From Panacagrimonas perspica (GTDB taxonomy: Bacteria; Pseudomonadota; Gammaproteobacteria; Nevskiales; Nevskiaceae): a stretch of 64,000 nucleotides of DNA. A program made the translations under genes and the position numbers. Each line of letters begins with the position of its first letter. The first letter of the stretch is position 1. The stretch is from positions 248,001 through 312,000 of the forward strand of contig NZ_SOBT01000012.1 of the NCBI RefSeq assembly GCF_004364935.1, in the 5' to 3' direction. Shown here in pieces: positions 22,500 through 46,749 of this stretch. The notes under the pieces were generated by a model. That model was not told the origin of the DNA. It was given only the letters and a program-made list of their open reading frames with translations, and made no database searches.

Positions 22500-23549
22500 T
22501 TATGCGGCGTCGCGCATCAGGCCCGTGCCCGGATGGCAGTTGATGTACTCGTAGCGCTGCGCGGCGCCGTCGAACACCGACACCTCGTGGTACAGGCGCA
22601 ACTTCTGCAGCTTCGCCGCCACGCCCATGAACGTAACGAAGATGCGCAGGTGCGTGGGATGCGCTTCGGCCCAGCGCTCGAGCTGGTCGAGCGAGCGCCA
22701 GTGTCCGAGCCCGAAACTCTTCTCGACGGGCTTGCCGTCGAGGTCGATGAACTGCACGTAGCGATTGCTGTAGCAGCCGACCTCGCGCCCGTTGTCGCGC
22801 AGGAAATCCATGCCTGCACGCAGCGTGGGTTCGATCTGTTCGAGATAGAGCGTGCGCTCTTCGCCGTCGGTGTCTTCCCAGTCCTGGCCGGAGCGGATCA
22901 GGCAGACGTTGTCGTGGCCGGTGATGACGACGCGGCCGCCGAGCGCCGGCTGGCCCTGGCCCACGGCGAGCGCGCCCTTGGCGCTCATCCAGTCGGTCTG
23001 CGATGCCGGAAAGCGGTCGCGCATCGAACCCCAGTAGCCGTGCTCCTCGATCTCGCCGCTGAGACGGCTGGCGATCGCGCCGACACCGGGGAAGCGTTCC
23101 TTGAAGGCGTAGAGCGTTTCGAACTGCTCGACGCGCGGCATCATGATTTCGCGGAAGTAGCCGATGCCGTCGCGAAGCCGGTCGTCACTGTTCCACCAGC
23201 CGGCGAGGCCGGGCTGATTCACCCAGCGTTCGTACTTCTCCGGAGCATCCCAGTACGCGACCGCGATGAGATTGTCGTAGCCGCTCGCATCCTGGTACTC
23301 GACCAGGTCGTGGTGAACCGGATCGTCGGCGGCGGACCCGAACGCGCGCACCAGTCCGCGCAACGCGTTCAGTGCGCGCTCGCGCAGCTCCGGTCCTTTC
23401 GACTGCACGCCGAAGTAACCCATGACGACCTGCTTGACCGAGGGCGACGCGCGACCGACGAAGGCCGCATAGGGCGGCTGGTAGTCGTCGGCGACGCGGC
23501 GCGACAGGCTGCGCGGGCACTTCAGGTGCTGATCGATCGCGGATTCCAT
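22500..23549 (-). CDS. Haem-containing aldoxime dehydratase (phenylacetaldoxime dehydratase family)
   Basis: A 349-residue haem b enzyme of the family that dehydrates aldoximes to nitriles in the aldoxime-nitrile pathway. Four residues line up, each with an offset of one, with the active site described for the Rhodococcus OxdRE enzyme: Arg179 (SMRDRF), Ser220 (LIRSGQ), His300 (HPTHLRIF; proximal haem ligand) and His321 (LYHEVSVF). Length matches the family (about 350). The ATG at 23549 has GAGGAGAG just upstream. It is convergent with a nitrilase-superfamily gene and 98 bp downstream of pdxH. No signal peptide, so cytoplasmic. The natural substrate cannot be told from sequence. Confidence 0.9.
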   Translation of the reverse strand: MESAIDQHLKCPRSLSRRVADDYQPPYAAFVGRASPSVKQVVMGYFGVQSKGPELRERALNALRGLVRAFGSAADDPVHHDLVEYQDASGYDNLIAVAYWDAPEKYERWVNQPGLAGWWNSDDRLRDGIGYFREIMMPRVEQFETLYAFKERFPGVGAIASRLSGEIEEHGYWGSMRDRFPASQTDWMSAKGALAVGQGQPALGGRVVITGHDNVCLIRSGQDWEDTDGEERTLYLEQIEPTLRAGMDFLRDNGREVGCYSNRYVQFIDLDGKPVEKSFGLGHWRSLDQLERWAEAHPTHLRIFVTFMGVAAKLQKLRLYHEVSVFDGAAQRYEYINCHPGTGLMRDAA

Positions 23550-23647
23550 CTGCCCTCTCCTCGATGTGGTTCTGCGTTCCGGTGCATTGCCGGAGGATAT
23601 TCGCGCAGGCTTGCGGTCCGATCGGACCAGCCTGCTGTGTCTCTTGC

Positions 23648-24265
23648 TCAGGGTTCCAGCCGTTCCACCGTCCAGCCATCGCCTTCGCGACGATAGCGCA
23701 GGCGGTCGTGCAGGCGATTGCGGCGGCCCTGCCAGAATTCCACCGACTGCGGACGGATCAGATAGCCGCCCCAGTTGTCCGGCAACGGCACCGGCTGGCC
23801 TTCGAGACGCTGCACGTTCGCGGCCAGGCGCTCGTCGAGTTCGTCGCGGGTGGCCACCACGCGCGACTGCAGCGACGTCGCGGCGCCGATCTGGGAACCG
23901 CGCGGACGCGATTCGAAATAATCGCGGCTGAGGTCGCGCGACACCTTCTCGACGCTGCCCTCGAAGCGGACCTGCCGCTCCAGGCGATCCCACCAGAACG
24001 TGGCCGCCGCGAACGGATGTACGGCCAGTTCCTGGCCCTTGCGCCCTTCGTAGCAGGTGTAGAACGTGAGCCCCGCGTCATGGAAGCCCTTGAACAGGAC
24101 CACGCGCGCCGACGGCCGGCCATCGGCACCGACCGTGGCCAGCGTGAACGCCGTGGGTTCGATCATGCCGGCGGCGCGCGCATCGCCCAGCCAGGCGTCG
24201 AACTGGGCGAGGGGATCGGCGTTCAGCGACGTCTCGATCAGCGGAGGATTGAGGGTGTATTGCAT
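23648..24265 (-). CDS. pdxH: Pyridoxamine/pyridoxine 5'-phosphate oxidase
   Basis: A 205-residue FMN-dependent oxidase completing pyridoxal 5'-phosphate synthesis and salvage. Diagnostic segments are the FMN-binding RPSARVVLFKG, FYTCYEGRKGQEL and AATFWWDRLERQVRFEG stretches, SRPRGSQIGAATSLQS, and the C-terminal VEFWQGRRNRLHDRLRYRR that closes the active site. Normal length. Divergent from the hybrid kinase gene, with a 76-bp gap. The aldoxime dehydratase gene follows on the same strand, so the two may share a transcript. Cytoplasmic homodimer. Confidence 0.95.
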   Translation of the reverse strand: MQYTLNPPLIETSLNADPLAQFDAWLGDARAAGMIEPTAFTLATVGADGRPSARVVLFKGFHDAGLTFYTCYEGRKGQELAVHPFAAATFWWDRLERQVRFEGSVEKVSRDLSRDYFESRPRGSQIGAATSLQSRVVATRDELDERLAANVQRLEGQPVPLPDNWGGYLIRPQSVEFWQGRRNRLHDRLRYRREGDGWTVERLEP

Positions 24266-24341
24266 GCGCCACAGTGTGCATCAGCCGGCGCCGCCGGAGC
24301 ATCCGCTGGCCCGCGACCGTAGCGGTCGGCACAATCGGCGC

Positions 24342-28454
<4,113 letters not shown>

Positions 28455-28668
28455 CCGGCGCCGCGCGCAGCCAGGCTCCGTGACGCACCCGTCGGGCGCA
28501 CCCCCGAAGCACGGCGCCGACGTCGTCCACGGAGGCGGTGATGCCCTTCACCGGAAGCGGGCGGCACGCGCGCTCGTCTTGGTGTAAGAAGAGTGAGGAG
28601 AATTTTGTGGAGTCGGACGTCGTGCGCTGCCAAAAGGCGGCGCCGCGACATTCTCGGTTTCGTCTGGA

Positions 28669-29736
28669 GTGCGGGGGGAGGACGTGGACGACGACAGCGG
28701 AAGCGACCGGGACTCGATCCTCGTGGTGGACGATATTCCCGCGAATATCGAAGTCCTGTCCGGGATCCTGCGTGGCGAGTACCGGGTGCGGGCAGCCACC
28801 AACGGTGTTCGCGCGCTCGAGATCGCGGCGGGTGATTCCGCGCCGGACCTGATCCTGCTCGACGTGATGATGCCGGACATGGACGGCCTGACGGTGTGCC
28901 GTCGATTGAAGGCCGATCTGCGCACGCGCCACATCCCGGTGATCTTCGTCACCGCCATGAGCGAGATCGACGACGAGGCCCAGGGTTTCGAAGCGGGCTG
29001 CGTGGACTACGTGACCAAGCCAGTCAGCCCCTCGATCGTGCTGGCCCGCGTGCGCACGCAGCTCTCGCTGGCCAACCAGAACCGCGCGCTCGAACGCCAG
29101 GTGCGCATCCGCACCAGCGAGCTCGAGCGCACGCGCCGCGCCGTCATCCGCTGCCTGGGCAAGGCCTCGGAGTTCAAGGACGACAACACCGGACTGCACG
29201 TCGTGCGGATGAGCCAGTACTCGCGCGCACTGGGTCTTGCGGTGGGCATGAGCGAGGTCGACGCCGACCTGCTGATGCTGGCGTCGCCGATGCACGATGT
29301 CGGCAAGATCGGCGTGCCGGACAGCATCCTCAAGAAGCCGGGAAAGCTGACGCCCGAGGAATGGGCGCTGATGCAGCAGCACGTGCACTTCGGCGCGCTG
29401 ATCCTCGGCGACCAGGATTCCGAGCTGCTGCAGATGGCCAAGACCATCGCGCTGACGCACCACGAGAAATGGGACGGCTCCGGTTACCCGGCGGGATTGG
29501 CGGGAGAGGACATCCCGCTGGTGGGACGCATCACCGCGCTGGCCGACGTGTTCGACGCCCTGACCAGCGTGCGGCCGTACAAGCGCGCCTGGAGCCTGGA
29601 CGAGACGGTCGACTACATCCGCAAGGAGCGCGGCCGGCACTTCGATCCGCTGCTGGTCGACAAGCTCGCGCAGGTGCTTCCGGAGTTCGACCGCATCAAG
29701 ACCTATTACGCGGACCAGGCGGAAGGGCATTCGTAG
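28669..29736 (+). CDS. Response regulator with HD-GYP cyclic-di-GMP phosphodiesterase domain (RpfG-like)
   Basis: About 355 residues: a receiver domain (about 15-135) with phospho-acceptor Asp65 in LILLDVMMPDMDG, a coiled-coil linker (about 145-175), then an HD-GYP domain with HD at 209-210 (MHDVGKIG) and GYP at 272-274 in HHEKWDGSGYP. HD-GYP enzymes hydrolyse cyclic di-GMP. It follows the hybrid kinase by 214 bp on the same strand, so it may take phosphate from that relay. Start: GTG 28669 gives the longest product; GTG 28684, just behind GGGGGGAGG, is an equally possible start. The TAG stop falls in a palindromic repeat. Cytoplasmic. Confidence 0.92.
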   Translation: MRGEDVDDDSGSDRDSILVVDDIPANIEVLSGILRGEYRVRAATNGVRALEIAAGDSAPDLILLDVMMPDMDGLTVCRRLKADLRTRHIPVIFVTAMSEIDDEAQGFEAGCVDYVTKPVSPSIVLARVRTQLSLANQNRALERQVRIRTSELERTRRAVIRCLGKASEFKDDNTGLHVVRMSQYSRALGLAVGMSEVDADLLMLASPMHDVGKIGVPDSILKKPGKLTPEEWALMQQHVHFGALILGDQDSELLQMAKTIALTHHEKWDGSGYPAGLAGEDIPLVGRITALADVFDALTSVRPYKRAWSLDETVDYIRKERGRHFDPLLVDKLAQVLPEFDRIKTYYADQAEGHS

Positions 29737-29790: not shown

Positions 29791-29850
29791 GGGTGCTGGC
29801 GATGCCTCAGTAGAATGCCGCTCTCATCACCTCACCGGAATTCATCAGCC

Positions 29851-30843
29851 ATGACCCGCTTCCGTGCCCTGCGCGTCCACCAGGTGGAAAAAACCCTGCT
29901 GTCGAAGTTCGAAGACCTTTCGATCGACGACCTGACGCCCGGCGAAGTCGTCGTCCGCGTCGCGTATTCCTGCCTGAATTTCAAGGACGCCCTGGCCGTC
30001 ACCGGCAAGAGCCGCATCATGCGCGCGATGCCGCGCGTGGCCGGCATCGACCTGTCGGGCACCGTGGAGTCCAGCAGCGACCCGGCCTACAAGAAGGGCG
30101 ACGAGGTGCTGGTCACCGGCTGCAACCTCGGCGAACTGCTGGACGGCGGCCTGGCGGAAATGGCGCGCGTGCCGGCCTCGGCGGTCGTGCCGCTGCCCAA
30201 GGGCCTGAGCCTGCACGACGCGATGGCGCTGGGCACCGCGGGCTTCACGGCGGGCCTGGGCGTCAAGCGCATGCTCGAGAATCATCAGGCGCCCGAACTG
30301 GGCCCGATCGTCGTCACCGGTCCGACCGGCGGCGTCGGTTCCATCGCCATCCAGATCTTCAAGCGCTGCGGTTTCGAAGTGATCGCACTCACCGGCAAGA
30401 AGGCCGCGGCGGAGGATTACCTGCGCAAGCTCGGCGCCGACCAGATCGAGGATCGCACCACGCTCGACCTCGGCAAGAAGCCACTGGAAGCCGCCCGCTT
30501 CGGCGGTGCGCTCGACAACCTCGGTGGCGAGACGCTGGCGGGCCTGACCCGCAACATCCGGCAGTGGGGCACCATTGCCAGCATTGGTCTGGCGCAGAGC
30601 CACGAGCTGACGACCACGGTGATGCCCTTCATCCTGCGCGGCGTGTCGCTGCTGGGCATCAACTCGGTGGAAGTGCCGCGCGAGTGGCGCCTCGACGTCT
30701 GGAACAAGCTCGCCGGCGACTGGAAGCCGAAGAACCTGTCCGACATCGTGCGTCGCACGATCACGCTCGACGAAGTGCCGGCCGCCTGCGCCGAACTGAT
30801 GGCGAGCAGCGTGCAGGGTCGCTACGTGGTGAAGATCGGCTGA
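29851..30843 (+). CDS. acuI: YhdH/AcuI-type zinc-free MDR oxidoreductase (acrylyl-CoA reductase family)
   Basis: A 330-residue medium-chain dehydrogenase/reductase without structural or catalytic zinc ligands. Family marks are VAYSCLNFKDALAVTGK near residue 50, VAGIDLSGTVESS, the nucleotide-binding GPTGGVGSIAIQ (about 154-165) and the C-terminal SSVQGRYVVKIG. Characterised YhdH/AcuI proteins reduce acryloyl-CoA to propionyl-CoA with NADPH, detoxifying acrylate. The ATG at 29851 was chosen over an upstream in-frame ATG at 29815 because homologues begin M-x-x-F-(R/K)-A. A stand-alone gene between two palindromic repeats. Cytoplasmic. Confidence 0.9.
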   Translation: MTRFRALRVHQVEKTLLSKFEDLSIDDLTPGEVVVRVAYSCLNFKDALAVTGKSRIMRAMPRVAGIDLSGTVESSSDPAYKKGDEVLVTGCNLGELLDGGLAEMARVPASAVVPLPKGLSLHDAMALGTAGFTAGLGVKRMLENHQAPELGPIVVTGPTGGVGSIAIQIFKRCGFEVIALTGKKAAAEDYLRKLGADQIEDRTTLDLGKKPLEAARFGGALDNLGGETLAGLTRNIRQWGTIASIGLAQSHELTTTVMPFILRGVSLLGINSVEVPREWRLDVWNKLAGDWKPKNLSDIVRRTITLDEVPAACAELMASSVQGRYVVKIG

Positions 30844-30999: not shown

Positions 31000-33066
31000 T
31001 CAGCTTCGCGTATCGAACTCCGCCAGCAGCCGCGGAACGCTGTCCTCGGTGGTCTCAGCGGCGGGCTCTTCCGGCCAGCGCGGCGCCTCGCCGGCGTCGA
31101 TCGACTCGCCGATGACGGGGAACGCAAAACAGAACGAGGTGCCGCGGCCGTCGTCGTTGGGCTTGGCCCAGATGCGCCCGCGGTGGCGCTCCACGATGCG
31201 CTTGCAGACGGCCAGGCCGATGCCGGTGCCCGGGTACTGCTCCTGGGAATGGAGCCGGCGGAAGATCTGGAACACGTCGGCGGCTTTTTCCGGATCGATG
31301 CCGATGCCGTTGTCGCGCACCGTGATCAGCCACTCGTTTCCGGAGCGCCGCCCCGAGATCATGATGTTCGGCGGCGCCTCGCCGTGGAACTTGAGCGCGT
31401 TGCCGACCAGGTTCTGGAACAGCTGGGTGAGCTGCTGGCTGTCGCCCTGGATCGTCGGCAGGTCGCCGATCAGGAATTCGGCGCCCAGCTCCTGCACGGC
31501 GGTCTGCAGCAGCGACAGCGAGGCTTCCAGCGCGTCGCGCAGGTTCACCGGCTGGAACGGCTTGGGTTCGTGGCCCAGGCGCGAATAGTCGAGCAGGTCC
31601 ACGATCATGCGCTGCATGCGCGTGGCCGCGGCGGTCAGGAAGTCGAGATATTCCTGCGCCTCGGCGTCGAGCTTGTCGCGGTAGCGTCGCGCGAGCAGCC
31701 CGGAGAATCCGCCGATGGCGCGTAGCGGCTCCTGCAGATCGTGCGAGGCGATGTACGCGAACTGCTGGAGTTCCTGGTTGCTGCGCGCGAGTTCGGCGTT
31801 GGCGCGGCCCAGGTGCTCGTTGTTCTCCTGCACGCTGAGCTGCGAGCGCTTGCGTTCGAGCAGGTTGCTGACCATTTCGCCGAACAGCTTGAGCAGCGTC
31901 GTGAGCTGAGTCGGCCACGCCGTCTCGTGCTCGACCGCGTCGAAGCCGACGTAGCCGCGCACCTCCGAGCCGCTGTGCATCGGCACCAGCAGGATCGACT
32001 TGATCGACTCGGACTCCCACTCGACCTGCTCGGCCGCGGCGTCCGCCGGCAGCGCCGAGACGCGATCGATCGACACCACTTCACCGCGCTGGATGCGCGA
32101 CAGGCACCACGCGTAGGTGCTGGAAGACAGGTCCTGCAGGCGATCGCGCTGTTCGGCGATGCCGCGGCCGCACCATTCGTGCGTGCAGCTCACCTTCTCG
32201 CGCGACGGCGAGAATTCGAAGATGTAGGCGCGATCCACCTCGGCGAAGCGGCCGACTTCGCCCAGCGCGTCGGTGATCGACTCGTCGGCCTCTTCCACCG
32301 GCACGCTGATGAAGCCGGTCGACAGGCGCGTCACCAGCGACTCGAAGCGCATCCGCCGGTCCAGTTCGGACAGCGTGCGATGGCGTTCCGAGATGTCCAG
32401 CAGCAGGCCGCAGATCAGCGTGCGTCCGGGCGCCGGCAGGTGGATGGCGCGCAGTTCGCAGGGCACATCGGTGCCATCGGTGCGGCGCACCATGAACGGT
32501 ACTTCCAGCTTCTCGCCGCCGACGGCGCGCTGGATCAGGCTGCGGCAGTAGGCCTCGGTGCTCATGCCCTGCTGCTCGGGAGGCGCGATATCCATCGGGC
32601 TCATGCCGATCAGCCGGGTCCGGGGATGGCCGGTGAGCTTCGAGAAGTTCTCGTTGGCATCGGTGATCTGGAACGCCTCGACGTGGAACACCCACATCGC
32701 GTCGGGTCCGTGCTCGGCGATGGCACGCTGCTGGGCAATGACGTTCTGCAGCTCGGACAGGCGCTGGTTGACGGCCGAGGCCATCTCCGTGAACGGACGG
32801 GAGATCCCTTCGGGCGCGCCGCGCGTGGCGTGGCCGATGCGCAGGGAGTCTTCGCCGCCCGCCAGTTTCTGCACGGCTTCCTGCATCGCGTTCAGGCGGC
32901 GGTCGAGCAGGTCCACGAACCAGGCCCCCGCCGAGGCCACCAGCACCAGCGCGGCCAGCACGTAGGGCAGCGCGCTGGGCATGTCCGAGAGCAGGCCGAG
33001 CTGACCCAGGCCGAACACGGCGGTGGCCATCAGCACGGCGAACGCGAAGCTGTATTTGAGTGACAC
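31000..33066 (-). CDS. Membrane PAS-GAF sensor histidine kinase
   Basis: About 688 residues. Two N-terminal membrane helices separated by a very short loop (about 5-50) are followed by a HAMP-like linker, a PAS domain (about 115-235), a GAF domain (about 260-410), a HisKA domain with phospho-acceptor His442 in IASHDLQEPLRAIGGF, and an ATPase domain with NLVGNALKFHG, DNGIGIDP and GTGIGLAVCKRIVERHRGRIWA. The HDLQEPLR form is the bacteriophytochrome-like HisKA subtype, but no bilin-binding Cys context is seen. No receiver is fused or adjacent, so it is an orphan kinase here. The GTG at 33066 is preferred because it places the first helix at the N-terminus. Confidence 0.87.
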   Translation of the reverse strand: MSLKYSFAFAVLMATAVFGLGQLGLLSDMPSALPYVLAALVLVASAGAWFVDLLDRRLNAMQEAVQKLAGGEDSLRIGHATRGAPEGISRPFTEMASAVNQRLSELQNVIAQQRAIAEHGPDAMWVFHVEAFQITDANENFSKLTGHPRTRLIGMSPMDIAPPEQQGMSTEAYCRSLIQRAVGGEKLEVPFMVRRTDGTDVPCELRAIHLPAPGRTLICGLLLDISERHRTLSELDRRMRFESLVTRLSTGFISVPVEEADESITDALGEVGRFAEVDRAYIFEFSPSREKVSCTHEWCGRGIAEQRDRLQDLSSSTYAWCLSRIQRGEVVSIDRVSALPADAAAEQVEWESESIKSILLVPMHSGSEVRGYVGFDAVEHETAWPTQLTTLLKLFGEMVSNLLERKRSQLSVQENNEHLGRANAELARSNQELQQFAYIASHDLQEPLRAIGGFSGLLARRYRDKLDAEAQEYLDFLTAAATRMQRMIVDLLDYSRLGHEPKPFQPVNLRDALEASLSLLQTAVQELGAEFLIGDLPTIQGDSQQLTQLFQNLVGNALKFHGEAPPNIMISGRRSGNEWLITVRDNGIGIDPEKAADVFQIFRRLHSQEQYPGTGIGLAVCKRIVERHRGRIWAKPNDDGRGTSFCFAFPVIGESIDAGEAPRWPEEPAAETTEDSVPRLLAEFDTRS

Positions 33067-33239
33067 CGGTCCTGCCTTTTCCTGTTGCCCTTGCGGGCGC
33101 ACCCGGATTGTCCTGCGCGCGCCGATGAAATGCGATGCATCACCCGATCGGCGCGGGCCATTCTTACTACTTACGGTCGGCACGCGCGATTCGTACGGTG
33201 CGGACGGCCGCGCGGACGATGGCTACCTCAGGATTTGTC

Positions 33240-36158
33240 ATGACCCTCAATCGCACCCCGACCTGGCTTGCCTCGATGCTGATCCCGCTGGCGCTGCTGC
33301 TGCCGGGCTGCGACTCCAGGATCTCCTCGGGGCTCGGGGACGCCGTCGGCGGCCCGGACGGCGGGACCGCCGAGCCGCGGACCTACAGCGTATGCGCGGC
33401 CGGCACGATTTCGCGCGATGCGCTGATCGCGTTCTTCGACGCCCGCGAAGGCGACACCATCGAGTTCTGCGCCGGCCGGTTCGACCTGCCCACCGGCCTG
33501 ATCCTCAACGGCAAGCGCGGCATCACGATCAAGGGCGCGGGCATGGACCGCACCTTCCTGTCGTTCAAGAACAGTGATAGCGCCGAGGGAATCAACGCGA
33601 CGCACGCGGACGGGCTGATCGTCGACGGCCTGACCATCGAGGACACCCCGGGCAACGGCATCCGCGTGTTCCGCTCGGAGCAGGTGGTGCTGCGCAACGT
33701 GCGCACGCGCTGGCGCGATGCCGCCGGCCGCGACGAGACCCAGGCCGGGTATACGCCGCGCTTCCAGGCCGGTGCCTACGGTCTGTACCCGGTGGAATCG
33801 CGGCACGTGCTGATCGAGGGCTGCGAGGCGCACGGCGCGAGCGATGCCGGCATCTACGTCGGCCAGACCTCGGACGTGGTCGTGCGCAACTGCCTGGCGA
33901 CCTACAACGTCGCCGGCTACGAGTTCGAAAACACCTTTCGCGCCGTGTTCGAGGACAACGTCGCGACCAGGAACGTCGGCGGCTTCCTGGTGTTCGACCT
34001 GCCCGACCTGCGCCAGTACGGCGAGAAGAACGTGGTCCGGCGCAACAAGAGCTATGCCAACAACACCGACAACTTCGCGCCGGTAGGCAACATCGTGGGC
34101 CTGGTGCCACGCGGCACCGGCATGCTGATCCTGGCGTCCGATCAGCTCGAGATCTACGACAACGAGATCTACGACAACGACACGCTCGGCATCGCGATCA
34201 TCAATTACGGGCTGGCCGATCCGAATCAGCCGGACCCGCGCTACGACTTCTATCCCGAAGGCATCGAGATCCGGCACAACCAGTTCCGCGACAACGGCGG
34301 CAACGTGCAGCTGCCGAGTGCGGATCGCGGCGAAGCCTCGGTCCTGCCGCTGCTGCTCAAGCTCAAGAATCTGGGCCGTTCCGCGCATATCGTCTGGGAC
34401 GGCGCGGTCGACGCACCCAACGGCTGCACGTCGATTCCCAAGGATGCGGACGGCGTTGCGCTGACGCAGCCCAACGCCGCACGTCCGCACGAGGAACAGG
34501 GCGGGCGCACCGACGAGCGCGGCCGACCGAACGTGCTGCGCGAGGACGCGACGCCCACCTGCAAGTGGAACGCCTGGAAGTTCGGCACCGACGGCGCGCT
34601 CAAGCTGCCGGAGAACGGGGTGTGCATCGCGGCCGACAACACCTACTCCAACACCCAGCCCGGGACCTTGCTGAACACCGAGTTCCTGCGCGCCAACATC
34701 ACGTCGAGCGACCCGGTACAGCTCGTCCTCGACCTGCTCAAGCCGGCATCGACGGACCTGACGCCGCATCGCTGCGATCTGCCGACCCGACCCGACCCGG
34801 TGCTCGACCTGCCGTACGTGCCGGATCCGGACAGCGAGGACGCGCGGCCCGATCCTGCGGTCGTGACGGCGGCCTGCACCGGCGGCACTGCAGGGCAGGT
34901 CAATCGCGCGGCGCTGGCGTACGACTGCCCGCGGCTCGAGCAGTACGGGCTGTTCGCCGAGGCGCAGGACCCGACGAAGAACGCCAGCGGCGGTGGCGTT
35001 CCCTACGAGCTCAACACCGCACTGTTCAGCGACTACTCGACGAAGTACCGCTTCCTGTTCATCCCGCCGGGCCAGACCGCGGTCTACCGTGATCACACGA
35101 ACGGCGTGACCGCCACGCTCGACTTCCCGGTGGGAACGGTGATTGCCAAGACGTTCGCGTTCCGCAAGGAGGACGGGACGGGCACGCTGGTGTCGGAGAA
35201 CGTCGTCGAGACGCGCCTGCTGATCAAGCGGCAGAAGGCGGATGGCAGCGTGCAGTGGGTGGGCTTGCCTTACGTCTGGAGTGGCAGCGGCACGACGCGC
35301 GTCGCCGAACTCAAGCTGGAAGGCAGCACCGCGTCGGTCGAATACGACTATCTCGATCCGGATCCCGGCGTGAAGAACGCCGACGGCAGCCGCAAGCGCT
35401 ACACCGGCGCCACCGCGAGCTATCGCGTTCCGGCAGCGCTGAACTGCCTGACCTGCCACGCGGGCGACGATCGCGAACCCGGCAGCGCACCGATCGGGCC
35501 CAAGGCGCGCAACCTCAATCGCGACCATGACTACGCGGGCGTGGGCAGCATCAACCAGCTCCAGCACCTGAAGAATCTCGGACTGCTGACCGGGCTGCCG
35601 GCAGACACGTCGACCGTCGAGCGCCTGCCTCGGTGGAACGTCCCCGGCTCCACCGGTCAGTTGCCGGCCTCGCCCCAGGACGTGCACCTGCGTGTGCGCG
35701 CGTACCTCGAGACCAACTGCATGCACTGCCACAACCCGCGCGGCGCGGCGTCGAACAGTGGCCTGTCGCTGGACTACTACCGCACGGTCAACGTGCAGTA
35801 CGGCATCTGCAAGAAGCCCGTCGCGGCAGGTCGTGGGTCTGGCGGCAAGCGTTTCGACCTGATCCCGCGTGACGCGGACGGATCGATCCTGCCGTTCCGC
35901 CTTGCATCGGCGGAGGCCGGCGTGAAAATGCCGCCGATTGCACGCAGCCTTGCGCATGGCGAGGCCGTGAACCTGGTGACGGAATGGACGGACTCGGTGT
36001 TGCCGACGGCGGATACCGAAGACGAGGAGGTTTGCGCCGGCGGAGGGCTGGGCGGCCTGCCGCTGAGCGTTCCGGCGATCGCGCGGGCTTATGCGGAAAC
36101 GGCGAAGGCGCTGACGTCGGCGGATCAGCGACGCGCCAGGGAAGCGCCGCGTCCCTGA
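33240..36158 (+). CDS. Lipoprotein fusion: right-handed beta-helix domain plus dihaem cytochrome c (SO2930/HNE_0200-like)
   Basis: A 972-residue exported protein with a lipoprotein signal (lipobox LLLPGC, Cys24). Residues ~55-530 form a right-handed parallel beta-helix with repeated short strands (for example VIVDGLTIEDTPGNGIRV and DVVVRNCLATYNVAGYEF). Residues ~560-940 match the dihaem family SO2930/HNE_0200, with two haem sites, CLTCH at 736-740 and CMHCH at 827-831, and a possible Met ligand in VKMPPIA. These two families are normally separate neighbouring genes of unknown function; here they are one polypeptide. The N-terminal part also has paired Cys. The ATG at 33240 has AGGA six bases upstream. 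Probably periplasmic or outer-membrane anchored; a redox role is inferred. Confidence 0.9.
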   Translation: MTLNRTPTWLASMLIPLALLLPGCDSRISSGLGDAVGGPDGGTAEPRTYSVCAAGTISRDALIAFFDAREGDTIEFCAGRFDLPTGLILNGKRGITIKGAGMDRTFLSFKNSDSAEGINATHADGLIVDGLTIEDTPGNGIRVFRSEQVVLRNVRTRWRDAAGRDETQAGYTPRFQAGAYGLYPVESRHVLIEGCEAHGASDAGIYVGQTSDVVVRNCLATYNVAGYEFENTFRAVFEDNVATRNVGGFLVFDLPDLRQYGEKNVVRRNKSYANNTDNFAPVGNIVGLVPRGTGMLILASDQLEIYDNEIYDNDTLGIAIINYGLADPNQPDPRYDFYPEGIEIRHNQFRDNGGNVQLPSADRGEASVLPLLLKLKNLGRSAHIVWDGAVDAPNGCTSIPKDADGVALTQPNAARPHEEQGGRTDERGRPNVLREDATPTCKWNAWKFGTDGALKLPENGVCIAADNTYSNTQPGTLLNTEFLRANITSSDPVQLVLDLLKPASTDLTPHRCDLPTRPDPVLDLPYVPDPDSEDARPDPAVVTAACTGGTAGQVNRAALAYDCPRLEQYGLFAEAQDPTKNASGGGVPYELNTALFSDYSTKYRFLFIPPGQTAVYRDHTNGVTATLDFPVGTVIAKTFAFRKEDGTGTLVSENVVETRLLIKRQKADGSVQWVGLPYVWSGSGTTRVAELKLEGSTASVEYDYLDPDPGVKNADGSRKRYTGATASYRVPAALNCLTCHAGDDREPGSAPIGPKARNLNRDHDYAGVGSINQLQHLKNLGLLTGLPADTSTVERLPRWNVPGSTGQLPASPQDVHLRVRAYLETNCMHCHNPRGAASNSGLSLDYYRTVNVQYGICKKPVAAGRGSGGKRFDLIPRDADGSILPFRLASAEAGVKMPPIARSLAHGEAVNLVTEWTDSVLPTADTEDEEVCAGGGLGGLPLSVPAIARAYAETAKALTSADQRRAREAPRP

Positions 36159-36305: not shown

Positions 36306-37874
36306 ATGGAACCGCTGCTGATCGGCAAGGGCGAAACGCCCCAGGTCATTCTTCCGAAGTACGCCAACCGGCACGGTCTGATCGCCGGTGCGACGGGAAC
36401 CGGCAAGACGATCACGCTGCAAGTCCTGGCCGAGGGATTTTCCGAACTGGGCGTGCCGGTGTTCGCAGCCGACATCAAGGGCGATCTGTCCGGCGTGGCG
36501 ATGGCGGGCGAGGCCAAGCCCAAGCTGGCCGAGCGCGCCGCGCAGATCGGGGTCGCCGGCTACGCACCGCAAGCCTGTCCGACGGTGTTCTGGGACGTCT
36601 TCGGCGAACAGGGTCACCCGGTGCGCGGCACCGTCTCCGACATGGGTCCGGATCTGCTGGCGCGGCTGCTCGATCTTTCGGACGTGCAGCAAGCGGTGCT
36701 GATGCTGGTCTTCAAGTACTGCGACGACCAGGGTCTGGCGCTGCTCGATCTCAAGGATCTGAGAGCGGCCTTGTCGCACGTGGCCGAGAACGCCAAGGCG
36801 CTGGGGCCGGACTACGGCCTGATCAGCACCTCGTCGGTCGGCGCGATCCAGCGCGGCCTGATCGGGCTCGAGCAGGACAGTGGCAATGCGTTCTTCGGCG
36901 AACCGGCGCTGGAGCTGGCGGACCTGATGCGCGTCGACCTGTCCGGTCGCGGCATCGTCAACGTGCTCGCTGCGGACAAGCTCTACCAGAAGCCGCGCCT
37001 GTACTCGACGTTCCTGCTGTGGCTGCTGGCCGAACTGTTTGAGGAACTGCCCGAGGCGGGTGATCTGGAAAAGCCCAAGCTCGTGTTCTTCTTCGACGAG
37101 GCGCACCTGCTGTTCAATGACGCGCCGAAGGCGCTGCTCGAGAAGATCGAGCAGGTCGTGCGCCTGATCCGCTCCAAGGGCGTGGGCATCTACTTCGTCA
37201 CGCAGAATCCGCTGGACCTGCCGGACACGGTGCTGGGTCAGCTCGGCAATCGCGTGCAGCACGCGCTGCGCGCGTTCACGCCGCGCGACCAGAAAGCGGT
37301 CAAGGCGGCGGCCGAGACGTTACGCGTGAATCCGAAGCTCGACGTCGAAGCGGTGATCACGACCTTGGGCGTCGGCGAGGCGCTGGTGTCGACGCTGCAG
37401 GAAGGCGGCATCCCGGGCATCGTCGAGAAGACGATGATCCGTCCACCGAAGTCGCGCATGGGGTCCATCACGCCGGCGGAGCGTCAGCTCATCATCGGCC
37501 GCAGTCCGGTGTCGGGTCGTTACGAGAAGGCCGTGGATCGCGAGTCCGCGTACGAATTGCTGACGCAGCGCGCGAACCGCGCCGCGGAAGATGCCAGCGC
37601 CGCCAAGGCGCAGGCCGATCAGGTGAAAGCGGATGCCGCCGCGGCGAAGGCGGCAGCCAGGGCCGACGCCGACTGGAAGAAGGACGTTCGTGATGCCTAC
37701 GGGCCGGCCTCTCGTGGCCGGGCGCCCGCCGCACCGCGCGCGCCATCACGACGCAGCGATACCGTCGTCGAGACGGCGGTGAAGAGCGCCACGCGCAGCC
37801 TGGCGACGAGCATCGGAAGCCAAGTGGGACGCAGCTTGCTGCGCGGCATCCTCGGCTCGCTGACGAAGCGCTGA
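36306..37874 (+). CDS. HerA/FtsK-like ATPase, DUF853 (YjgR) family
   Basis: A 522-residue P-loop ATPase of the HerA-FtsK superfamily. Walker A is GATGTGKT (28-35) and Walker B is [12 protein letters not shown] near 255-266, followed by the sensor-like [12 protein letters not shown] helical Ala/Lys-rich segment (about 415-450) and a basic, low-complexity C-terminal region follow. YjgR homologues are widespread but their role is unclear; HerA relatives pump or process DNA. No nuclease (NurA) gene is adjacent, so this is not a HerA-NurA repair pair. A small membrane-protein gene follows 13 bp downstream. Cytoplasmic. Confidence 0.9.
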
Positions 37875-43751: not shown

Positions 43752-44277
43752 CCTGCTTATGCTCGTCGCGGCGCTCGCGCTGAGCAGCTGCGCGACGCTG
43801 AACGAATCCGAATGCCGTACGGCGGACTGGTATCAGCTCGGCATTCGCGACGGCACCGACGGCTACCCGCGCACGCGGCTCGACGACCATCGCAAGGCCT
43901 GTTCAGAGTTCGGCATGTCGGCGAACGACGCCGAGTGGCAGGAGGGCTACGAGACCGGTCTGCTGAATTACTGCACCGTTGACAACGGGTACAAGGTGGG
44001 GCGAGGCGGCGGCTACTACTCGCGCGTCTGTCCGGCGCAGTCCGAGGCCGATTTCGTTTCGGCGTACGAACTGGGCAAGGAAACCTACGACGTGGAACGC
44101 GAGATGGCCGATCTCGACCGACGCGTGGAGACCCTGCAGGACCGCTTGGTCAGCGACAAGGTTGACGACGCGACCCGAAAGGACGCCCGGCGCCAGCTTT
44201 CGGACTTGTACGACCGTTCGCACTGGCTGCGACGCGCACATGACCGGCTCGAGAACGAGTGGCGCCGCCGGTACTGA
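43741..44277 (+). CDS. DUF2799-type lipoprotein
   Basis: A 178-residue exported lipoprotein with lipobox LSSC (Cys17) after [13 protein letters not shown]. The mature part has the DUF2799 signature: [37 protein letters not shown] and [12 protein letters not shown], Cys- and Gly-rich units each containing WxxGYxxG-like motifs. A coiled-coil helix follows (about 120-178; [16 protein letters not shown]). Role unknown. The ATG at 43741 was chosen because it gives the lipoprotein signal; it lies inside the end of rppH, implying coupling. Periplasmic face of a membrane. Confidence 0.87.
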
Positions 44278-44321
44278 ATCCATCGCCTTTCGCCACCGGC
44301 CTGTGGCTCCCCGGCACACGG

Positions 44322-44350
44322 TTGACAATCATTCGCATTAACTTTAATTT
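44322..44350 (+). promoter_or_regulatory. Sigma-70-like promoter of bfd
   Basis: TTGACA (44322-44327), a 17-bp spacer, then TAATTT (44345-44350). The -35 is a perfect match. Transcription would begin about 44357, only a base or two before the bfd ATG, so the message may be almost leaderless; no Shine-Dalgarno sequence is evident. Confidence 0.55.
44324..44342. promoter_or_regulatory. Fur-type operator
   Basis: GACAATCATTCGCATTAAC matches the 19-bp Fur consensus (GATAATGATAATCATTATC) in its palindromic AAT(C/G)ATT and CATTA elements. It overlaps the -35 and spacer of the bfd promoter, so iron-bound Fur would block transcription. Fits the known iron-limited expression of bfd. Confidence 0.65.
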
Positions 44351-44358
44351 TGCGAGCC

Positions 44359-44580
44359 ATGATCGTCTGCATCTGCAAGGCCGTTTCCGACAAGCGCATT
44401 CGCCGTGCCGCGAGTGAGGGCGTCGTCAGTCTGCGGGAGCTGAGCCGCGAGCTCGGCGTCGGTACCTGCTGCGGCAAGTGTGTTCCTCAGGCGCGCGAGG
44501 TTCTCTCCCAGGCCGTCGAATCGCAGCCGATGAAGCTTGCCGACATGATGTCACCGGCCTTGATACAGGCGACGGCCTGA
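44359..44580 (+). CDS. bfd: Bacterioferritin-associated ferredoxin
   Basis: A 73-residue [2Fe-2S] protein that docks on bacterioferritin and passes electrons to the stored ferric core, releasing iron when the cell is starved. The four cluster ligands fall at the same numbers as in characterised Bfd: Cys4 and Cys6 (MIVCIC), and Cys38 and Cys41 (CCGKC). The C-terminal tail is short and variable. The bfr gene follows 129 bp downstream. A Fur-type site overlaps its promoter. Start: ATG 44359, since homologues begin M-(Y/I)-V-C-(I/L)-C. Confidence 0.95.
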   Translation: MIVCICKAVSDKRIRRAASEGVVSLRELSRELGVGTCCGKCVPQAREVLSQAVESQPMKLADMMSPALIQATA

Positions 44581-44709
44581 AGATCGCGATTCGACGCGTT
44601 TGAGAATCGCACGTAAAAGCAATTGAAATTCCTTCGTCTTCAGCTACTTAGGCTGGACGATCGAGGTGTGGCGGACTAGACTCGCGGCTTCTCTACCGGA
44701 AGCCCTGCC

Positions 44710-45186
44710 ATGCGCGGTGACGCCAAGGTCCTCGAGTACCTCAATCTCGCCCTCCGAAACGAACTGACTGCGATCAACCAGTACTTCCTGCACGCCCGGA
44801 TGCTGGACAACTGGGGCATGAAGAAACTCGGAAAGAAGGAATACGAAGAGTCGATCGACGAGATGAAGCATGCGGATTCGCTGATGAAGCGGATCCTCTT
44901 CCTCGAAGGTCTGCCCAACCTCCAGGACCTCGGGAAGCTGTTCATCGGCGAGGACGTCAAGGAAGTCCTGGAGTGCGATCTCAAGCGTGAGCTGGAAGCG
45001 CACCCGATGTACAAGGAAGCGATCGCCTACTGCGAGCAGGTGCGTGACTACGTGACGCGCGAACTGCTGGTGCGTATCCAGGAGAGCGAGGAAGAGCACA
45101 TCGATTTCATCGAAGAGCAACTCGGGCTGATCGAACGGATGGGCCTGCAGAACTACATCCAGAGCGTCAGCGGCGAAATCGAATAA
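44710..45186 (+). CDS. bfr: Bacterioferritin
   Basis: A 158-residue subunit of the 24-mer iron-storage cage with haem. All dinuclear ferroxidase ligands are present at the E. coli Bfr numbers: Glu18, Glu51, His54, Glu94, Glu127 and His130. The haem-ligating Met52 is also there, so this is a catalytically active, haem-binding subunit rather than an inactive alpha-type one. It follows bfd on the same strand, giving storage and release proteins side by side, and a strong terminator follows. The ribosome site (GGAAG) is modest. Cytoplasmic. Confidence 0.96.
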
Positions 45187-45203
45187 GCAGCTGTTCCGAT
45201 ATG

Positions 45204-45229
45204 AAAAGCCCCGCACAGCGGGGCTTTTT
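45204..45229. terminator. Bidirectional intrinsic terminator
   Basis: Stem AAAAGCCCCGC (45204-45214) / GCGGGGCTTTT (45218-45228) with a 3-base loop. The T run on the right serves bfr; the A run on the left becomes a T run for the convergent hemJ transcript. Confidence 0.9.
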
Positions 45230-45236
45230 GTTGGGC

Positions 45237-45653
45237 TCAGAACGGTTTGACGATCACCAGGATCACCACCGCGATCAGCACGATCGCCGGCACCTCGTTG
45301 ACCCAGCGCCAGAATTTTCCCGAATGCGTGTTGGTGCCGGCCGCGAACTTGCGCAGGTTGACCTTGAGCCAGCCCTGGTAGCCCGACAGCGCTACCACCA
45401 GCGCCAGCTTCGCATGTAGCCACCCCATCTTCATGTACTCGGGCACCAGCGTGATCATCCAGATGCCGAAAGCCCAGGTCAGCACCATGCCGATGGTCAT
45501 CATCGCGTAGAGCTTTCGCTCCATCGTGCAGAAGCGCGCGTGCTCGTCGGGAGTCTTGGCTTCGAGGTGATAGATGAACAGGCGCGGCAGGTAGAACAGC
45601 CCCGCGAACCAGGTGACCATGAAGATGACATGGAAAGCTTTGATCCAAAGCAT
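45237..45653 (-). CDS. hemJ: HemJ-type protoporphyrinogen IX oxidase
   Basis: A 138-residue inner-membrane protein with four helices. HemJ carries out the sixth-electron oxidation step of haem synthesis, protoporphyrinogen IX to protoporphyrin IX, in organisms lacking HemG or HemY. The family opening LWIKAFHVIFMVTWFAGLFYLPRLF contains the conserved His8, and GWLHAKLALVV contains the conserved His and Lys. It is convergent with the bacterioferritin gene across a shared terminator, a haem/iron neighbourhood. Length and hydropathy fit. Confidence 0.9.
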   Translation of the reverse strand: MLWIKAFHVIFMVTWFAGLFYLPRLFIYHLEAKTPDEHARFCTMERKLYAMMTIGMVLTWAFGIWMITLVPEYMKMGWLHAKLALVVALSGYQGWLKVNLRKFAAGTNTHSGKFWRWVNEVPAIVLIAVVILVIVKPF

Positions 45654-45717
45654 GAGTGGCGACGTGGATTCAGAAGTCAGCCGTTAGAATAGCGACCCTT
45701 TCGCGGTCGGAACGCAA

Positions 45718-46749
45718 ATGACCAAGGTCGGTATCGTCGGCGGCACCGGTTACACCGGGGTCGAACTCCTGCGGCTGCTTGCGCATCATCAGGGCGCGCA
45801 CGTCGAGGTCCTGACGTCGCGTCAGGAGTCGGGCAAGCGCGCCGATCAGCTGTTTCCGCAGCTGCGCGGATACTGCGACGCCGTCTTCGAATCTCCGGAT
45901 ATCGAGCGCCTGGCCAAGTGCGACGCGGTGTTCTTCGCGACCCCGCACGGCACCTGCATGCAGATGGCGCCTCAGCTCATCGAGCGCGGCGTGCGCATCA
46001 TCGATCTGTCCGCCGATTTCCGGCTCAAGGATCGGGACGTCTTCCAGCGCTGGTACAAGATGCCGCACACGGCGTTCGATCTGCTGCAGGAAGCGGTCTA
46101 CGGCCTCCCCGAATTCGATCGTTTCTCGATTGCCCACGCACGGCTGGTCGCCAGCCCGGGCTGCTATCCGACGGCCGTGCAGCTGGCGCTGATGCCGCTG
46201 CTGGAACTCGGGGCCCTCGAGACCACAGGCATCATCGCGGACTGCAAATCCGGAGTCACCGGCGCCGGTCGCGAGGCCAAGATCGGCTCGCTGTACTGCG
46301 AGGCAACCGACAGCCTCAAGGCTTATGGCGTCGCGGGACATCGGCACCTTCCGGAAATCGAGCAACAGCTCGCCGTTTTCGCGGGCGAATCGGTGCAATT
46401 GACGTTCGTGCCGCATCTGACGCCGATGAGTCGCGGTATCCACGCGACGATCTACGTGCGGCCGAAGGATCCGGATATGGACTTCCAGTCCAAGTACGAG
46501 CTGCGCTACCGCGGCGAGCCCTTCGTCGACGTCATGCCGGCCGGCGAGCACCCGGAAACCCGCAGCGTCCGTGGCAGCAATGTCTGCCGAATCGCGCTGC
46601 ACCGGGCGCCGGATCGCAAGACGCTGGTGATCCTGGCGGCGATCGACAACCTGGTCAAAGGCGCCTCGGGCCAAGCATTGCAGTGCTTCAACCTGATGTT
46701 CGGGTTCCCCGAAACGCAGGGCCTGGACGGTCCGGCGCTGGCGCCCTGA
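45718..46749 (+). CDS. argC: N-acetyl-gamma-glutamyl-phosphate reductase
   Basis: A 343-residue NADPH-dependent reductase of arginine biosynthesis. Rossmann motif [17 protein letters not shown] (6-22); active-site Cys149 in ASPGCYPTA; catalytic His in [11 protein letters not shown]; and the C-terminal [17 protein letters not shown] with the family's oligomer contact. Other arg genes are not next to it in this window. Instead, a DUF6776-like gene, a bactofilin and erpA follow in the same direction. Cytoplasmic. Confidence 0.96.

Follow-up and report, generated by a model that had tools for sequence, protein, structure and literature searches.

What might a lipoprotein that carries a beta-helix and two haems on a single chain do at a bacterial surface? 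The question is raised by a gene of Panacagrimonas perspica (Gammaproteobacteria; Nevskiales) located in a 64,000-nucleotide stretch of contig NZ_SOBT01000012.1 (positions 248,001 to 312,000), all of which is referred to here as the window. The gene fuses a TIGR03805 beta-helix to a dihaem cytochrome c close to TIGR03806. The domain around its first haem is a supported but remote relative of cytochromes P460 and c'-beta; all tests of this relationship fell below family thresholds. Our tentative reading is that the protein would act as a single-chain, lipid-anchored extracytoplasmic redox enzyme of the cell surface, with its substrate on the beta-helix, the chemistry at haem 1 and the export of electrons via haem 2. 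The features needed first are as follows.

33240-36158, + strand: fusion gene of 972 codons, encoding a lipoprotein signal, a beta-helix, a P460-like haem domain and a C-terminal cytochrome c (open reading frame [ORF] and family searches, codon guanine-plus-cytosine [GC] pattern, structure model)
34917-35585, + strand: P460/c'-beta-like haem domain, residues 560-782, including haem motif 1 (fold, Pfam, profile alignment)
34926-35996, + strand: TIGR03806 match, residues 563-919 (profile search)
35445-35459, + strand: haem motif 1, CLTCH, residues 736-740 (sequence)
35718-35732, + strand: haem motif 2, CMHCH, residues 827-831 (sequence)

The domain around haem 1 remotely resembles cytochrome P460

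The cytochrome half matched TIGR03806 over profile positions 2-313 of 314, with 297.1 bits (E = 1.4e-88) against an NCBIfam cut-off of 313.3, and both CxxCH motifs lie within this full-length match. A match passed the curated cut-off in 1 of 61 related genomes. The structure predicted for the cytochrome half (predicted local distance difference test [pLDDT] score, 88.3) was compared with solved structures using VIA-align. All of the top 17 rows, representing about six proteins, were P460 or c'-beta and aligned within model residues 1-231 at Z values of 3.9-5.7, which lie under the level often reached by models without a clear match and alone prove nothing; the next row had a Z of 2.6. VIA-align gave no separate solved match for the C-terminal cytochrome, a part that it barely tests. 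When 46 haem-1 domains were scanned with Pfam, 16 matched Cytochrome_P460 (best E, 0.0018) and 3 the next family. Other matches at similar E values were PapC_C in one domain (0.002) and NapB in two (0.02).

Profile alignment pointed in the same direction. With hhalign, the haem-1 and P460 profiles gave probabilities of 80 and 68 per cent, depending on the direction of comparison, and a score of 39.5 over 43 columns (P = 1.4e-5 for a single comparison). None of 200 column shuffles scored as well (maximum, 21.3); the reversed profile reached 12.3 and the beta-helix profile 19.9. The P460 profile was built from 11 of the 30 P460 loci found, namely those on the + strand that were readable without reorienting, the others being dropped. 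Because the aligned columns precede the haem motif, these alignments are independent of CxxCH. The best Protein Data Bank (PDB) row for the haem-1 profile was a cytochrome c555 trimer (E = 1.7e-7), which amounts to three copies of one weak match at the haem motif. A search of the P. perspica genome (G000) at E 0.001 found no PF16694 match.

Conservation was assessed in 106 cytochrome rows, left after removal of domains shorter than about 230 residues, of duplicate rows and of ORF calls that overlapped. The following positions stood out.

35049-35051, + strand: Arg604, near-invariant (104/106), a possible counterpart, aligned by eye, of distal Arg44 of N. europaea P460 (conservation)
35148-35150, + strand: Lys637, near-invariant (104/106), aligned with the P460 cross-linking lysine (hhalign, HMMER)
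35208-35216, + strand: Glu657-x-Arg659 (106/106 and 105/106), placed by eye on the strand of the P460 distal carboxylate (conservation)
35808-35879, + strand: loop with Lys858, present in 91/91 rows with a beta-helix partner and 0/15 without (conservation)
35928-35930, + strand: Met897, invariant (106/106), candidate sixth ligand of haem 2 (conservation)

Both hhalign and HMMER aligned Lys637, in the segment FPVGTVIAK, with the cross-link lysine of P460, and G632 with the glycine five residues earlier. The haem-bonding lysine is listed as Lys70 in N. europaea P460 and Lys106 in Nitrosomonas sp. AL212 P460 (PMC11928373, Table 2). As given in the account of McP460, its conserved set includes Gly73 and Lys78, and the remaining residues fully conserved across 144 P460s are two Trp and Lys115 (PMC6427953), none of which our profile alignment reaches.

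No conserved distal His or Met for haem 1 was seen in the 106 rows. Given the P460-like domain, the lysine at the cross-link position and the near-invariant polar residues R604, K637, E657 and R659, the distal face of haem 1 is probably open. Haem 2 resembles an ordinary His/Met cytochrome, Met897 being the only conserved Met in the alignment. Because its scores lie under the Pfam and TIGR03806 cut-offs, we call the domain "P460-like" and the cytochrome half a near member of TIGR03806, rather than a P460.

The beta-helix carries a conserved, probably outward-facing patch

33432-34403, + strand: TIGR03805 beta-helix, residues 65-388, with a fold match spanning residues 47-514 (profile search, structure model)
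33777-33998, + strand: conserved beta-helix patch, residues 180-253, comprising YGxYPV, SDAGIYVGQ, NVxGxExEN and D253 (conservation, strand order in the model)

The TIGR03805 match scored 293.9 bits (E = 1.2e-87), above the NCBIfam cut-off of 141.5. The closest folds to the modelled beta-helix were 8ja4 (Z, 32.4; root-mean-square deviation, 2.0 over 289 residues), AlgE4 (Z, 30.5) and RbmB (Z, 30.2). Ten residues (Y180, Y183, P184, V185, D202, Y206, Q209, E228, E230 and N231) were invariant in 82 of 82 rows and fall on successive turns; from the model, we infer that the patch lies on the outward face of one stacked sheet. The loci were retrieved with the patterns DAG[IV]YVGQ and NV[AF]G[FYI]E[FI]EN, so conservation within them is in part built in by the search. 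The residues Y180, Y183, P184, V185 and W158 lie outside both patterns. A gene labelled TIGR03805, Bcam1339, appears in a Burkholderia exopolysaccharide cluster in one account (PMC3584217).

The fusion is genuine and widely shared

33230-33233, + strand: AGGA, a Shine-Dalgarno-like site with a spacer of 6 bases to the ATG (sequence)
33240-33311, + strand: lipoprotein signal peptide, ending in the lipobox Cys24 (sequence)

The first-pass annotation of the window had described a 972-codon frame with a lipobox at Cys24, haem sites at residues 736-740 and 827-831, about 475 residues of beta-helix repeats and membership of TIGR03805 and TIGR03806, families said to be often adjacent and sometimes fused. 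The frame is open throughout, the lipobox and both CxxCH sites are present and the profile searches matched both halves, the second below the TIGR03806 cut-off. The beta-helix itself stands, and its proposed extent was revised, with the family match ending at residue 388 and the fold match at about 514. An alternative in-frame ATG at 33135 would extend the ORF; the Shine-Dalgarno-like site and the lipobox speak for the start at 33240. Of 22 fused ORFs, 20 have a loose lipobox pattern ahead of the beta-helix. A 909-amino-acid ORF on the minus strand overlies the gene and was taken as a high-GC shadow, since the codon GC pattern favours the + strand. The full-length predicted model had a pLDDT of 87.3 and a predicted template modelling score of 0.88. 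Sequence searches with the whole chain, the beta-helix profile and the cytochrome profiles returned no convincing solved relative.

Each family has one match in the P. perspica genome. Among 61 genomes (its own and 60 relatives), TIGR03806 was found in 43 and TIGR03805 in 46, and by hand tally 53 of the 64 TIGR03806 matches, in 40 of the 61 genomes, shared a frame with TIGR03805. Across 274 genomes of the class, the counts were 28 and 38, respectively, many of the matches being weak. A sample of the best 80 of 572 beta-helix loci contained 21 fused genes and 45 with a separate cytochrome gene; all 45 split pairs were on the same strand, and 43 had a gap of at most 40 bases or overlapping ORF calls. 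Sources of the fused form were Nevskiaceae, Salinisphaerales, Marinobacter, Alcanivorax, Spongiibacteraceae (Zhongshania), Moraxellaceae, an Endozoicomonas-labelled record, one Myxococcota-labelled metagenome-assembled genome and two Planctomycetota. Twenty-two pattern matches in viral sequences included no relative. At one planctomycete locus (L191, 10921-14245), two tandem TIGR03806-type ORFs follow a single beta-helix gene.

In a tree of the 106 cytochrome domains, obtained by a quick search, 40 fused rows formed one clade (Shimodaira-Hasegawa-like approximate likelihood ratio test [SH-aLRT], 100), and two planctomycete fused rows stood apart. The fused character needs two changes on this tree, of which the starred branches alone force one, which suggests two fusion events, the second (planctomycete) not being forced by the tree. 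An assembly artefact joining two genes was considered and rejected because the fusion recurs across related genomes and in a well-supported clade.

TIGR03806 ORFs that lack the beta-helix carry a different partner. Fifteen such rows formed one clade, and in 7 of 7 that were Pfam-scanned (of the 15) we found a GSDH domain (PF07995, glucose/sorbosone dehydrogenase of the pyrroloquinoline quinone [PQQ] type). The TIGR03806 module is portable, since it occurs with the beta-helix and with GSDH, and both times it is paired with a carbohydrate-related fold. Residues 829 and 858 (35718-35813) mark the beta-helix-partnered cytochromes: His829 was found in 89 of 91 and Lys858 in all 91. Without the beta-helix, His829 was replaced in at least 13 of 15 rows, as tallied from the four commonest letters per position.

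A possible mechanism and its rivals

In P460 and c'-beta the distal face of the haem is open, and such haems can be catalytic. Because the domain around haem 1 remotely resembles them, this haem may be the chemical centre of the protein rather than the electron carrier at the binding site that was first proposed. In the mechanism we favour, the beta-helix, with its alginate epimerase/lyase fold, would hold a carbohydrate-like substrate at the conserved tyrosine/acid patch beside haem 1, the open, P460-like haem 1 would perform an electron-taking step and the His/Met haem 2 would hand the electrons to a soluble cytochrome c. A single fused gene would stand in for a two-gene operon and fix the pairing. 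The steps beyond domain identity, among them the substrate, the direction of electron flow and the cross-link, are inferences.

Several observations weigh against this mechanism or the relationship on which it draws. The only Pfam match of the window's haem-1 domain was Cytochrome_P460 (PF16694), with an E of 0.032 and 15.1 bits, below the gathering score of 27, and the P460 profile gave the domain 2.9 bits. No P460 chain was found when the haem-1 profile was searched against PDB sequences to E 10, and Foldseek returned no significant match for the cytochrome-half model (best E, 0.21; P460, 0.31). The position of the distal carboxylate in active P460s may be occupied by Arg659 in the fusion protein. 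Low potentials are ascribed to P460 and c'-beta haems in a review (PMC11928373), which would make them ill suited to taking electrons from PQQ. The beta-helix has no known cofactor, and its sequence alignment with AlgG failed (hhalign probability, 0.1; for the segment of the fusion protein, 187 of 1,000 shuffles scored as well). For 14 of the best 80 of 572 beta-helix loci, no cytochrome gene was present in the fetched flank, and the genes that recur beside the fusion encode lipoproteins resembling peptidases and acylases rather than sugar enzymes.

The chief uncertainty is whether haem 1 performs catalysis or only relays electrons. If both haems merely carried electrons between the fusion partner, or some other secreted enzyme, and an outside carrier, in either direction, as the cytochrome domain would in the fused sugar dehydrogenases, the P460-like fold would be a scaffold; the presence of the same module behind GSDH dehydrogenases and the resemblance of haem 2 to an ordinary His/Met cytochrome are as such a relay would have them. 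We consider this unlikely, since haem 1 has no conserved distal ligand that we could see and its domain carries near-invariant polar residues, unlike a relay haem, since the beta-helix offers no known redox cofactor to relay from and since the low potentials reviewed for P460 and c'-beta fit badly with a relay from PQQ.

More improbable still is a surface detoxifier or sensor, in which haem 1 would meet nitric oxide (NO), hydroxylamine or peroxide and the beta-helix would merely dock to an extracellular polymer or partner. P460 and c'-beta do bind or act on hydroxylamine and NO, as summarized in PMC11928373, but such a role leaves unexplained the invariant beta-helix patch, the swap to a sugar dehydrogenase and the beta-helix genes that have no cytochrome. 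A NosD-like maturation or metal-handling scaffold, with the beta-helix binding a partner protein or metal and the cytochrome giving electrons for assembly, is very improbable: the protein matches Pfam NosD (36.9 bits; threshold, 23.6) and the fold of 7osf (Z, 27.2), but its NCBIfam NosD (TIGR04247) score is 24.6 bits against a cut-off of 300, and none of the 19 neighbouring ORFs scanned encodes a copper protein or NosFYL component.

Returning to the favoured surface redox enzyme, a bolder generalization can be stated, which we regard as doubtful: TIGR03806 as a whole could be an unrecognised, widespread branch of P460/c'-beta, with a lysine-modified catalytic haem and a built-in cytochrome c, serving as a portable surface oxidase module joined to either a polysaccharide-type beta-helix or a PQQ sugar dehydrogenase.

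Neighbouring genes

In the window, the fusion gene looks monocistronic. A PAS/GAF histidine kinase gene (31000-33183) is divergent from it, and a HerA-like ATPase gene (36306-37874) is next downstream. The first-pass annotation had excluded adjacent oxidoreductase, copper protein and transporter genes. The scan of 19 ORFs agrees for copper proteins and transporters; as for oxidoreductases, a zinc-type dehydrogenase gene (29815-30843) lies two genes upstream, and nothing ties the two.

Further away, the stretch 24066-29736 (+ strand) encodes a large hybrid histidine kinase, which combines solute-binding, PAS, receiver and Hpt domains, and then an HD-domain response regulator. A haem-containing dehydratase (PF13816; E = 6.3e-96), which we take to be of the aldoxime-dehydratase type, is encoded at 22500-23993 (- strand), about 9 kb from the fusion gene. 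The GC content dips to 0.60 at 44001-46000, compared with 0.65-0.68 in the surrounding bins.

At other loci, an M19-like lipoprotein adjoins the fusion in 6 of 41 distinct fused loci (42 loci, two being one place), and a PvdQ-like acylase does so in 5. The M19-like gene was present in 36 of 61 relatives, and none was found at E 1e-20 in three genomes of the genus. Given the few loci and the lack of an M19-like gene in the genus, neither partner is obligatory; a conserved operon partner was thus rejected, the neighbours being too inconstant to define a pathway. In Marinobacter (L163, 4374-16890), a run of lipoprotein genes comprises the M19-like gene, the fusion, an S15-type hydrolase and a 569-amino-acid protein without a Pfam match, with a molybdopterin-type dehydrogenase and a 2Fe-2S subunit on the opposite strand. 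Beta-helix genes without a cytochrome, as at L182 and similar loci, belong to a conserved gene block that also encodes DUF6454, an alpha/beta hydrolase and an EamA transporter.

What is known and what is new

The locus had been put forward as the best candidate for an undescribed system. This holds for its role, for which the literature searched gave none; the pair itself is not new, both families being named in NCBIfam and the fusion being common in the order. To our knowledge, the TIGR03805 and TIGR03806 descriptions give no function and no link to P460. In the open PubMed Central literature, TIGR03806 is not mentioned, TIGR03805 appears in two papers as a domain label and SO_2930 in one, within a localisation table, and we found no report on the function of the pair, the P460 link or the dehydrogenase swap. 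SO_2931, the adjacent number to SO_2930 in Shewanella, is named there as one of the outer-membrane cytochromes. The main text of a P460 review (PMC11928373) does not contain the words fused, PQQ, diheme or beta-helix. By name, both the pair and the fused form are known; new are the remote P460-likeness of the haem 1 domain, the GSDH fusion, the beta-helix fold and patch, and a tree that suggests two fusions.

P460 chemistry has been studied mostly in nitrifiers and methanotrophs. TIGR03805 and TIGR03806 occur in Pseudomonadota, Bacteroidota and Planctomycetota, and the P460 link gives a family without a role in the literature searched a concrete, testable chemistry. If the link holds, modified or open-faced haems would be at work at bacterial surfaces far more commonly than thought.

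Comparison with known systems

The fusion protein shares a Pfam match and a similar beta-helix fold with NosD of NosDFY. It differs in lacking a transporter partner among the neighbours scanned and in falling far under the NCBIfam NosD cut-off.

Alginate epimerases/lyases (8ja4, AlgE4) and the polysaccharide lyase RbmB have a like right-handed beta-helix (Z, 30-32) at 16-21% identity. A YGxDPH[DE] turn is catalytic in alginate C5-epimerases/lyases. AlgG has YGIDPHD, which YGxYPV of the fusion family resembles by eye, with D and H replaced; Y183, P184 and V185 of this motif are found in 82 of 82 rows, and the register with AlgG is uncertain, the motifs being paired in 5 of 23 alignments. Because alignment did not confirm this register, we make no claim that the beta-helix is an inactive or modified epimerase. 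The P. perspica genome encodes an AlgG mannuronan epimerase of its own (L267, contig 6; 732 bits, above the family cut-off), the sole case among 143 class genomes sampled.

The PF07995-TIGR03806 dehydrogenases carry the same dihaem module, also on the C-terminal side. Unlike the fusion, they form a separate clade in which Lys858 is absent (15/15) and His829 mostly replaced (at least 13/15).

With P460 and c'-beta (PF16694), the haem 1 domain shares what appears to be a beta-sheet haem c architecture, in which CxxCH comes close to the end. Also in common are the lysine aligned with the cross-link site, the glycine that precedes this lysine by five residues and, by eye, a Trp in between. Unlike them, the fusion has an extra C-terminal cytochrome c, a beta-helix partner (a dehydrogenase in other carriers), possibly an Arg in place of the distal carboxylate and a score below the gathering threshold.

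The closest known system is the TIGR03805/TIGR03806 pair. The fusion differs from it in that its cytochrome half lies just under the curated cut-off; both halves match nearly end to end, and the fused and adjacent forms are widespread.

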